Shown here piece after piece: positions 20,138 through 33,943 of a stretch of 38,565 nucleotides of DNA. Both the position numbers and the translations under genes were made by a program. The stretch's first letter is position 1. Every line of letters begins with the position of its first letter. The notes under the pieces are model-generated. The model made no database searches. It saw nothing but the letters and a program-made list of their open reading frames with translations, and was not told the DNA's origin. The stretch is from Thermosynechococcaceae cyanobacterium MS004 (GTDB lineage Bacteria; Cyanobacteriota; Cyanobacteriia; Thermosynechococcales; Thermosynechococcaceae): positions 1-38,565 of the forward strand of contig JAKRSB010000019.1 in assembly GCA_022402525.1 (NCBI GenBank), written 5' to 3'.

Positions 20138-21472
20138 CTAGGCCACAGCGGCTGGTGTGAGTGAGGCCCCATTCAGGCGCTGAAGTAGCTCTTGAAGCTG
20201 AATCTGAAACAGCCCCACCTCAGACATGGAGAGAGGTTTCGTCAGAAAATCACACCCGCTCCACTGAGCGCGCCACTTATTGGACAGCTTTTGCTCCCCC
20301 GTCAAGATCACCATCGGGATTTCAGAAATTTCCGGCTTTTGGCGAATTTGCTTAGCCAGCTCAAACCCAGAAATTGCTGGCATATTGATGTCAATAAAAA
20401 TCGTGTCCGGTCTATGGAGCAAAATGCTAGACAGGGCAGACTGCGCATTCTGACAGCTCACCACCCGAAAGCCCAGCGCCGTAACCCAATGCTGGAACTG
20501 CTTCAGCACCAGTGCCGAATCATCAATAATCATCACGGTGGGCATCTCCGAAGACTGCTCAGCTCTGAGCTGGATGATGCCTGCCCCCACAAACCGCGCA
20601 AAAATTCGGGCCACCTCTAAGGAATCTTTTGCGAGGCTGATTGCAATGTGATGGATCGTTTTACCCGACTGCACCCAATTCCGGAGATGGGCCTTTTGCT
20701 GAGCCGAGAGGCTCGCGCGCGCTAGCGCTGCTTCGTCCAGGTTGGGTATCAAGTTAATGGAGGGTACATAGGGCTTAATCTGGCTCCACAGCCCCTGACG
20801 CTGCATCGCTTCCTGAAGGAGTTCTGCAGCATTAAAGCCAGGAATCGGCAAAATCTGAATGCCTTCATCCCTCGGAATAAAGTGAGCGGTGCCTGCACCG
20901 AGCTGGCTGTAGGCATCTAAATCACTCAGGATTTTCAGCCGCAGGGCCTGCAGTAAATCTCCCTTTTCCAGAAACCCCATCTCTATCATTTGATAGGTTA
21001 TCTGAACCGGACTGAGGGACTGAGCTGACTGATTTTTGAGGAGATTAAAGTAGGGCTTTACAGACTCTTTGCGAGTTGAAAGAACATAGCGCTGTAGGAT
21101 TTTGAGCAGTGACGGAGTTGTCCAATAGGGGCTGCTGCCCGACGAAAGAATCGTTCCCTGAGATACGCCAACATACCGGCTCAGATCCTGATGCTGACCT
21201 ATCGAGCAGTCAAACTGAAGCTGCCAGCATCCATCTCCACCCTCAGCCGCACATTCCATGAGCTTTCGAGGAAGTTCTTGAGCCTGAAACGAGATTTGAC
21301 GGGTTTGAGCGATAGATTCTGTCATATAGTCAATGGCCAGCGGTTCAAAATATTTCCAGACGTTAAGACTTGCTGATAGGTAGGTTTCATCGATTGACCT
21401 TAGCCATTCTGTGGGAGTACTCCACTTCTGATTTGCAACGGGTGAATGGCGATCGCGGCATATTAGCAGCAC
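20138..21472 (-). CDS. PatA-type response regulator (PixG/HmpA-like)
   Basis: The 444-residue protein has an N-terminal PATAN/DUF4388-like region with AQELPRKLMECAAEGGDGCW and QLQFDCSIG. A helical middle part contains LSPVQITYQMIEMGFLEKGD, and a C-terminal receiver starts near 315: VMIIDDSALV, phospho-Asp in IFIDINMPAISG, Thr in MVILTGEQ and Lys in FLTKPL. PatA-type regulators head cyanobacterial chemosensory operons and affect pilus polarity or heterocyst patterning. The frame opens with GTG at 21472; the ATG at 21325 (residue 50) is an alternative start, since the first 49 residues show no clear domain. It is the first gene of the operon. Confidence 0.88.
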   Translation of the reverse strand: MLLICRDRHSPVANQKWSTPTEWLRSIDETYLSASLNVWKYFEPLAIDYMTESIAQTRQISFQAQELPRKLMECAAEGGDGCWQLQFDCSIGQHQDLSRYVGVSQGTILSSGSSPYWTTPSLLKILQRYVLSTRKESVKPYFNLLKNQSAQSLSPVQITYQMIEMGFLEKGDLLQALRLKILSDLDAYSQLGAGTAHFIPRDEGIQILPIPGFNAAELLQEAMQRQGLWSQIKPYVPSINLIPNLDEAALARASLSAQQKAHLRNWVQSGKTIHHIAISLAKDSLEVARIFARFVGAGIIQLRAEQSSEMPTVMIIDDSALVLKQFQHWVTALGFRVVSCQNAQSALSSILLHRPDTIFIDINMPAISGFELAKQIRQKPEISEIPMVILTGEQKLSNKWRAQWSGCDFLTKPLSMSEVGLFQIQLQELLQRLNGASLTPAAVA

Positions 21473-21643: not shown

Positions 21644-21807
21644 TAGGGGCATGTTTTGTTGTGCATTGATGACATGGCACGAACCTTAGCCGCGATCGCG
21701 GCTGGCTTCTTTGCCTTTTACACCAATCACCCTAGCTTCATCTGCTGACCGAGGGCGATCGCTGTAGGTTGGTGATCAGCGTTTCTAGAGATTTTTCTTC
21801 ATGTTAA

Positions 21808-21953
21808 CGTGCGTTCGATGATGCCCTTGAAGCCCCTCACCCCAAACCCCTCTCCCAAAGGCGAGGGGCTTAAGAAGGTTGATTTTTAATTGCCCCTCCT
21901 TCTCCCTAGGGAGAAGGAGGATGAGGGGCGGTTGTTTTTTGGTCGAACTCACG
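21808..21953 (+). mobile_element. MITE-like element, copy 1 (146 bp)
   Basis: The terminal inverted repeats are CGTGCGTTCGA (21808-21818) and TCGAACTCACG (21943-21953), 10 of 11 matching. It is flanked by a perfect 9-bp direct repeat TCATGTTAA (21799-21807 and 21954-21962), the signature of transposition. The interior has no ORF and folds into two hairpins: one closed by AAGCCCCTC and GAGGGGCTT, the other centred on TTCTCCCTAGGGAGAA within GCCCCTCC..GAGGGGC. The same element occurs at 33755-33906 in the same orientation. It probably moves using a transposase encoded elsewhere. Confidence 0.85.
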
Positions 21954-21972
21954 TCATGTTAATGCCCCTTTG

Positions 21973-23298
21973 CTAGACATCAGGCGTTGAGGGGGGCAGC
22001 GCTGAAGAGAGGGTTGGGGCAGGCTGCTGGAGTGCGCCGCAGTGACGGCAGTGCGCGAGGTGCTTGTAGGTTGGCGTATGGCAGGCTTGGCAGTTTACGT
22101 ACTGGGCATAGCCGCAGTGGGGACAGTAGGCATCTTGCGTCCGAATCTTTTTGGCACAGTTGAGACAGCGCTTATTTTGAACCCGGACTGTCGCCTGGGA
22201 CTGACGGTTAAGCGCCACGGTTTGAGCGACCTTAATGATGCCAAACCCGACCAGGGGCACCAGCAGGATGTAGAGATAGTTTACTAAAAACAGCAAACGA
22301 CCAAAGATCGCTGAGACGATATCAAAGAAGAGCTTAAAGACTGCCCCAATCTGCAAAAACTCAAAAATCTTGAGCAGTAGGGGGATAAAAAAGATGACCA
22401 GCAGGTGCCAGCTCATCAGTGCAATCAGGCCCGCTCTGCGCTTTAGGGCGATCTGGTGAATCCCAAGAGCGATCGCAATTAACGGCAGCAAGAATAGTGC
22501 CTGCAGTCCTAGCTGAATACTGGGATACCAGAATGATGCGTGCCCATAGTTCCTTTGAAGTAAATTATATTTGGACTCATCTCTCACTAAATTCAAGAGA
22601 AACTGGCTTTCAGACTTGTTGATGAGGGAAGCCTTAAGTGCGGTAATTTCAGCTTTGAGCGTTGAAATTGAGGCGTTATTTTGGTCTAGGGTTTGCTTGG
22701 CCTTTTCCGCACTCACCGCATTAATGGACTGATTTGCGCCCTGCCCCGCAATTTTTTCCAGCAGCGTCGAGTCATACTGCGAACGAATCGTGCGACTTTG
22801 CTGCTCAAGACTCCCAATCTTGGCCTGCTTTTGATTGATGCTGTCGTTCAGCTTCCGGTTTTCGGGACGGTTGACCTGGTCTTTTCGCTCAGCATAGGTC
22901 AGGCAGACAGGAGAGACGTTGCCCAAGCGATCGCGCTCTGTACTTTGGTAGGCTGTCTTAAAGCTAATGGCCCCGCCTGCCCCTACGCCTGAACTTCCAG
23001 GGGTTGAAGGGCTGGAAAGGTATGGGGTTTCTGTTAAGGCAGGCTGTAGTGCGGCGTAGTCACGGCTGCCCAGCGCTTTTGGATCGCGGTAGGTTTGCCA
23101 TGCGGAGAGGCAGGGATAGGCTTCCGTGGGGCTCATGGCCCAGCGACTGATGTGGTCTAGCCCAGCAAAAACGTTGAATAAGATAAACAGGTCAATCACG
23201 ATCACCACGATCAGACTGACCCGATTCAGTGGCTCATGATTAATTGAGCTTGATTTCCGAAATGCTTGACGTAAAAACCGTTTTGTAGAGGTAAGCAT
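21973..23298 (-). CDS. Membrane protein with coiled coil and C-terminal double zinc ribbon
   Basis: The protein is 441 residues from the ATG at 23298 (the frame extends only to a TTG at 23310). An N-terminal membrane segment (VSLIVVIVIDLFILFNVFAG) is followed by an exported or lumenal domain with two Cys and a coiled coil (about 145-240, with DSINQKQAKIGSLEQQSRTI). Three more hydrophobic segments come next (about 255-350). The C-terminus has two treble Cys pairs, CLNCAKK with CPHCGY and CQACHTP with CRHCG, typical of zinc ribbons. The function is unknown; the topology suggests a cytoplasmic zinc-ribbon sensor or adaptor on a membrane anchor. A MITE-like element ends 10 bases downstream of its stop, after the 9-bp duplication. 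Confidence 0.75.
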   Translation of the reverse strand: MLTSTKRFLRQAFRKSSSINHEPLNRVSLIVVIVIDLFILFNVFAGLDHISRWAMSPTEAYPCLSAWQTYRDPKALGSRDYAALQPALTETPYLSSPSTPGSSGVGAGGAISFKTAYQSTERDRLGNVSPVCLTYAERKDQVNRPENRKLNDSINQKQAKIGSLEQQSRTIRSQYDSTLLEKIAGQGANQSINAVSAEKAKQTLDQNNASISTLKAEITALKASLINKSESQFLLNLVRDESKYNLLQRNYGHASFWYPSIQLGLQALFLLPLIAIALGIHQIALKRRAGLIALMSWHLLVIFFIPLLLKIFEFLQIGAVFKLFFDIVSAIFGRLLFLVNYLYILLVPLVGFGIIKVAQTVALNRQSQATVRVQNKRCLNCAKKIRTQDAYCPHCGYAQYVNCQACHTPTYKHLAHCRHCGALQQPAPTLSSALPPSTPDV

Positions 23299-23387
23299 AG
23301 CGAAACTCAACCTAACCTTGAAGAAGGTCGCCTTGTAAAGTTACTTTGTAAAGTCGCCTTATTTTGACGGCTGCTTTCCTACAATAA

Positions 23388-33625: not shown

Positions 33626-33754
33626 TACGGCTTCCGACTGTTTAGCTCTCCATTGCCCAGCCATTGTAGGTTTCAGGCTATAGGCTGCTCAGCGCTGGGC
33701 CTGATCTACACCCCTCACCAACAGGGCAGACTAGGAGCACTGAACCTGAACTCC

Positions 33755-33906
33755 CGTGAGTTCGATGATGCATTTGAATCCCCTCACCCCAAACCCCTCT
33801 CCCAAAGGCGAGGGGCTTAAGAAGCTTGATTGTTAATTGCCCTTCCTTTTCCCTAGGGAGAAGGTGATGGGAGGATGAGGGGCGGTTGTTTTTTGTCGAA
33901 CTCACG
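33755..33906 (+). mobile_element. MITE-like element, copy 2 (152 bp)
   Basis: The terminal inverted repeats CGTGAGTTCGA and TCGAACTCACG are perfect here. The interior is homologous to copy 1 at 21808-21953, including CCCCAAACCCCTCTCCC and the CCCTAGGGAG centre, with a few substitutions and a short insertion near GGTGATGGGAGG. The flanks CTGAACTCC and TTGAACTCG match in 7 of 9 positions, a possible decayed 9-bp target duplication. However, GAACTC also occurs within the terminal repeat, so chance similarity is possible. Confidence 0.8.
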
Positions 33907-33943
33907 TTGAACTCGACATCCCGTCATTCCTAGAGCCTGCTCC

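Follow-up and report, generated by a model that had tools for sequence, protein, structure and literature searches.

A cyanobacterial MITE family with IS982-type ends and a pair of intrastrand-triplex motifs

It has been reported that insertion sequences of the IS982 family have ends beginning with AC, a length of about 1 kb and target duplications of 2-10 bp, and IS195 is filed in this family (PMC7335449). MITEs go unmentioned in the same review. A second described system is the intrastrand-triplex motif (TM/PIT; Holder 2015, PMC4666352), which combines a hairpin with a mirror third strand in the arrangement CCCTCNCCC N3-6 GGGNGAGGG N3 GGGNGAGGG. Such motifs occur as inverted pairs and are abundant in cyanobacteria; a triplex in solution was shown for the E. 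coli motif only, and no link of that motif to mobile elements was reported (PMC4666352). In this study, we describe an element that is an ordinary kind of MITE forming a new family. Its cargo, a pair of known triplex motifs, matters more.

The element lies in a stretch of 38,565 nucleotides from Thermosynechococcaceae cyanobacterium MS004 (the window). A preliminary description placed it at 21799-21962, and its base-level account was confirmed: TCATGTTAA is present at both 21799-21807 and 21954-21962, with near-matching inverted ends in between. However, the 146-bp element with 11-bp ends and a 9-bp target duplication that was proposed there is ruled out by comparison of 50 full copies, which defined an element of 148 bp (21807-21954) with 12-bp ends, ACGTGCGTTCGA and TCGAACTCACGT, that differ by one mismatch, and a true target duplication of 7 bp, CATGTTA (21800-21806 and 21955-21961). 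The terminal T is kept in 50/50 full copies and the terminal A in 45/50, and both bases were therefore assigned to the element. The 9-bp appearance was seen in only six of the 50 copies, including the window copy; it arises because insertion targets tend to read YTAANTTAR, so that the outer T and A equal the last bases of the element. A whole-consensus profile match showed that the window copy is 98% identical to the family consensus outside a deletion of 8 bp, which lies in the tail of hairpin 2 on its outer side. The features are as follows.

21807..21954, plus strand: MITE copy of 148 bp (family consensus 155 bp); whole-consensus profile match
21800..21806, no strand: left target duplication CATGTTA, 7 bp; sequence and copy comparison
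21955..21961, no strand: right target duplication CATGTTA, 7 bp; sequence and copy comparison
21807..21818, plus strand: left terminal inverted repeat ACGTGCGTTCGA (consensus ACGTGAGTTCGA); this variant end is shared with the IS982 relic of L154
21943..21954, plus strand: right terminal inverted repeat TCGAACTCACGT; copy comparison
21833..21843, plus strand: outer tail of hairpin 1, CCCCTCACCCC, stem mirror and third strand of the triplex motif; sequence and mirror test
21847..21868, plus strand: stem-loop of hairpin 1, CCCCTCTCC CAAA GGCGAGGGG; sequence and folding
21895..21920, plus strand: stem-loop of hairpin 2, CCTCCTTCTCCC TA GGGAGAAGGAGG; sequence and folding
21921..21928, plus strand: outer tail of hairpin 2, truncated, lacking 8 bp found in the consensus tail; profile alignment
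33754..33907, plus strand: second copy of the MITE in the window (L025); genome search and copy comparison
33747..33753, no strand: left target duplication of the second copy, TGAACTC; copy comparison
33908..33914, no strand: right target duplication of the second copy, TGAACTC; copy comparison

The window element is located 18 bp beyond the stop of a minus-strand gene (21973-23310) with weak zinc-ribbon matches, and 334 bp upstream of a minus-strand response-regulator gene (20138-21472). No ORF of 80 aa was found inside it, and Rfam gave no match to it. Both GC-rich hairpins noted in the preliminary description are present, and the fold of the element beats that of all 200 shuffled versions (z of -5.4 as DNA and -6.8 as minus-strand RNA).

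A search of the MS004 genome yielded 162 first-look candidates, 40 of which were scored; all 40 were full-length or nearly so. The profile built from the scored copies detected at least 69 distinct full-length copies and 19 that are truncated or at contig edges, at least 88 in total, a lower bound that covers the genome stretches fetched. Terminal-inverted-repeat matches numbered 95+104, compared with 28+26 for the reversed pattern, and the same ends occur in relatives. Among 50 full copies, the 7-bp duplication was perfect in 22 and matched at 6/7 or better in 30, versus 1.3 when left and right flanks were shuffled. Lengths of 6, 8 or 9 bp fitted far worse, with a few single copies fitting 8. 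A good duplication was absent from 20/50 copies; these tell against the transposition that the preliminary description had read from the flanking repeat, whereas the 30 copies at 6/7 or better speak for it.

These observations bear on the possibility that the element is a structural repeat (a REP/REPIN or dispersed terminator) whose inverted ends and flanking repeat are incidental. The interior is indeed GC-rich and palindromic, the TM motif also occurs elsewhere without MITE ends, and the copies are mostly intergenic: 49 of 55 long-flank copies lie between predicted ORFs with both neighbors assigned, five overlap an ORF and the remaining one lies at an edge. However, the exact 12-bp ends are shared with an insertion-sequence family, most copies carry the 7-bp duplication, and a structural repeat fails the shuffled-flank test (30/50 versus 1.3). 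REP/REPIN elements are also recognized by having no target duplication, which the 7-bp duplications of this family violate. In addition, 18 of 20 unassigned TM sites in the MS004 genome are copies that have a MITE end on at least one side, leaving a tandem array (L293) and a single unit (L299), and a simple consensus terminator scan found no site inside the element. We therefore consider a structural repeat highly improbable. Dispersed copies, conserved ends, target duplications and a matching insertion-sequence family all support the original view of a MITE moved by transposition.

Recent mobility, which had been suggested from the fresh look of the duplication, was not borne out. Copies have a median identity of 95% to the consensus and nearest neighbors at 88-98%, no two are identical, and only two decayed fragments of the partner transposase were found in the genome. 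At about 5% decay per copy, half of the 7-bp duplications are expected to be still perfect (44% observed); thus, a perfect duplication is no sign of recent movement. The MITE family is old in MS004. In a search for empty sites via the flanking gene, same-genus homologs of this gene were only 40-45% identical in protein sequence, too distant for comparison at base level.

Several variant forms were observed in the same genome. Two copies (L039 and L041, contigs C20 and C32) are short forms about 95 bp long that keep both ends but have a single hairpin, and they look like deletion derivatives. A further locus (L060, C128:850-2149), whose ends lie 1.3 kb apart, was considered as an autonomous partner and rejected, as it is a MITE copy broken at its CCTAGG center by a degenerate DDE-type insertion with CTATCCATTG ends. 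At L037 (C18), two near-identical 28-bp stretches next to the same terminal inverted repeat, at about 930 and 2168, flank a toxin-antitoxin-like pair; these stretches are possibly remnants of an insertion-sequence end.

The terminal repeats could be matched to insertion sequences, as the preliminary description had advised, and they point to IS982. In genome G003, the same 12-bp end bounds an intact gene for a transposase of 303 aa (NCBIfam IS982, E 8e-79; Pfam DDE_Tnp_1_3). This is an intact IS982 relative with the same end, present in the same family. Contigs of G013 and G002 break off about 96 bp into matching ends, a pattern expected of a multicopy insertion sequence; in G013, these ends encode termini resembling those of IS982. 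The two decayed IS982 transposase fragments of MS004 come from a draft assembly of 150 contigs, and one of them (a relic in L154) ends in TCGAACGCACGT, which matches the consensus end at 11/12 positions and is identical to the left end of the window copy. The fetched contig-terminal ends of this genome show MITE interiors, none with the interior of an insertion sequence. In Petrachloros (G010), no transposase was detected with the IS982 query used, despite many near-identical MITE copies. The partner is thus not seen beside the MITE in every genome, perhaps because draft assemblies lose multicopy insertion sequences. Unpaired ends in G031 were examined by eye as candidate ends of an autonomous element and rejected, the adjoining ORFs having no recognized transposase.

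It could also be argued that the MITE was mobilized by a transposase from a different family that happens to share these ends, given that an intact IS982 gene was found neither in MS004 nor in Petrachloros and that a Porphyromonas element with a similar end is listed as IS5 (PMC4596501). However, the gene directly inside the same ends in G003 belongs to the IS982 family, the G013 ends encode matching termini, and AC ends, a length near 1 kb, duplications of 2-10 bp and the placement of IS195 all fit IS982 (PMC7335449), which makes a different transposase family improbable. Our preferred reading, which we hold with considerable confidence, is that the window element is a non-autonomous transposon with IS982-family ends and a triplex-motif pair between them. 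The family, its ends, the 7-bp duplications, the intact IS982 relative and the mirror relation described below can be read directly from the sequences. An IS982 transposase is the likely mover of the MITE, and the family would now be immobile in MS004 because its partner has decayed. In the mechanism that we propose, this transposase would act in trans and recognize the 12-bp ends of the MITE, which would insert into AT-rich, YTAANTTAR-like targets with duplication of 7 bp, sometimes 8. The ends enclose an inverted TM/PIT pair, each unit consisting of a pyrimidine/purine hairpin and an outer, stem-mirroring tail.

When named genomes were scanned for exact matches to the end pair 129-159 bp apart, at least 113 stretches were returned. 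Among those listed are stretches from Nostoc, Petrachloros, Amazonocrinis, Tolypothrix, Anabaena and further cyanobacteria, together with non-cyanobacterial records that include Bacteroidales, Prevotella and Ruminococcus. Perfect 7-bp duplications were present in 40, and perfect 8-bp duplications in eight, of 81 elements read with the exact end pair. Most cyanobacterial interiors are GC-rich with CCTCTCC-type hairpins, whereas non-cyanobacterial interiors are AT-richer and have no such hairpins. The related family expanded more recently in Petrachloros mirabilis (G010), where pairwise identity among 15 copies has a median of 97% and reaches full identity in 24 of 105 pairs.

The likeness to dispersed cyanobacterial intergenic repeats that had been noted earlier proved right, and more precisely two intrastrand-triplex motifs make up the interior. 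Read on the minus strand, hairpin 1 is CCCCTCGCC TTTG GGAGAGGGG TTT GGGGTGAGGGG, which is a TM/PIT motif with one stem mismatch; hairpin 2 is a second unit of this kind in inverted orientation. The family consensus and its relatives have the pyrimidine/purine hairpin, the mirror third strand and the second loop of about 3 nt that define this motif. Among 32 non-redundant stem/tail pairs with a recognizable tail, the mirror relation was better than the direct one in 31, with one tie, and the best stem/tail gap was mostly 3, the published loop length. Natural variants reveal which symmetry is kept: of 53 non-redundant double hairpins whose two stems differ, 45 have tails that match their own stem better, and six have tails that match the neighbor's better. 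These counts are non-redundant, without being phylogenetically independent. As judged from such comparisons, tails mirror their own stems, the hallmark of a triplex, even where stems differ between lineages, and a triplex fold may form in the cell. The hairpin 1 pattern matched the MS004 genome 71+50 times, versus 45+40 for its reverse; because hairpin 1 is nearly a mirror repeat and the same sites are matched, the reversed pattern is not a valid control for it.

Alternatively, the interior might be cargo kept by selection, such as a bidirectional transcription terminator or an insulator by which insertions are rendered harmless or useful, a proposal compatible with IS982 mobilization. The paired hairpins are strong, the same pair is present in MITEs with unrelated ends, and copies are in surplus between converging genes: convergent-gene sites hold 17 of 49 copies, versus 18% of control intergenic length (p 0.004). 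This 3'-end excess, however, is also expected if harmful insertions near promoters are removed, and alone it shows no function. In addition, the E. coli motif reportedly showed neither promoter nor terminator activity (PMC4666352), the terminator scan was negative for the element, and the tails change together with their stems so as to stay mirrors, something not required of a plain terminator. Selected cargo is thus an unlikely proposal. The MITE probably has no essential role; it is tolerated between genes, and copies are somewhat enriched downstream of converging genes.

Bacterial genomes are rich in intrastrand-triplex motifs, for which, to our knowledge, no route of spread has been described. 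Nearly all checked copies of the hairpin 1 motif in MS004 ride an IS982-type MITE, and the same pair occurs in MITEs with other ends. Carriage by IS982-type MITEs is one concrete route of spread, which may help explain the distribution of these motifs in cyanobacteria. The other end types are CTGATTGACTGACAAAA, with duplications of 9-10 bp (L080, read by eye, and L092), GGGTGCATC (L097) and CTAATCCTGTAGGGGTTT, which is nested in an IS982-type MITE with the 9-bp duplication CCCCATTTT (L104, read by eye). In G031 (L103 and L104), the MITE with 18-bp CTAATCCTGTAGGGGTTT ends and its own TM pair sits inside hairpin 2 of an IS982-type MITE; the automated search for other ends missed these nested elements, and both were read by eye. 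Four loci (L075, L081, L100 and L101) contain a TM pair and no recognizable MITE ends. With MITEs of at least three unrelated end types carrying it, the TM pair behaves as a portable module.

A further lead came from DUF559, a Vsr-like nuclease domain. In the MS004 genome (L293, C83, about 21760-22360), TM pairs form a 138-bp tandem array of 4.4 copies with 97% matches, which is read in frame as part of a 586-aa ORF; a DUF559 domain lies in this ORF as well. Of 30 cyanobacterial DUF559 loci (L326-L355), 13 have TM units no more than 300 bp from the domain, 12 of them on both sides, whereas 5 of 1107 random positions in cyanobacterial contigs (0.5%) had them; the loci are best-scoring DUF559 matches and the baseline positions are unmatched by gene type. 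By eye, several loci have the DUF559 domain and its TM flanks in frame inside long methylase- or restriction-enzyme-like proteins. In other phyla, the same criterion gave TM units in 3 of 8 DUF559 loci, and others showed similar pyrimidine palindromes by eye. On a plasmid of Photobacterium sp. GJ3 (L359), a DUF559 gene lies next to an extended series of TM-like units, of which 13 fall in the part read. In the literature searched, none of the 14 papers that name DUF559 mentions triplexes. We regard this proximity as a lead rather than a result. It may tentatively be proposed, with the odds somewhat against it, that the inverted TM pair is a mobile module in its own right, with an autonomous form that has a DUF559 gene between the units, and that it was captured and multiplied by MITEs of several transposase families. 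If so, triplex motifs would gain a carrier and, in DUF559, a candidate enzyme, as REP elements did from RAYT genes.

Among the closest known systems, IS982 shares with the MITE family AC-starting ends and duplications within 2-10 bp, with IS195 having 12/12-bp ends (PMC7335449); autonomous relatives are about 1 kb long with one DDE transposase, whereas the window MITE is gene-free. MITE239 of Porphyromonas gingivalis has a left end that begins with ACGTGAGTTCGA, the consensus end of the window family, but it differs in host phylum and interior, and ISPg3, with a related end, is listed as IS5 (PMC4596501). Going by its description alone, the Nezha MITE of Anabaena/Nostoc (Zhou 2008) is likewise a cyanobacterial MITE, tied to a resident ISNpu3-like type (PMC3049150). 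The REPIN/RAYT system (PMC3116915) also has short palindromic units in inverted pairs dispersed between genes; however, the window family has DDE-type ends and clear 7-bp target duplications. Units of the window family share the hairpin, mirror tail and inverted pairing of TM/PIT. Four E. coli pairs have their hairpins outside and tails inside, whereas the window family has its tails outside, and the E. coli pairs were rejected as the same unit given this opposite arrangement and the absence of an IS982-type end.
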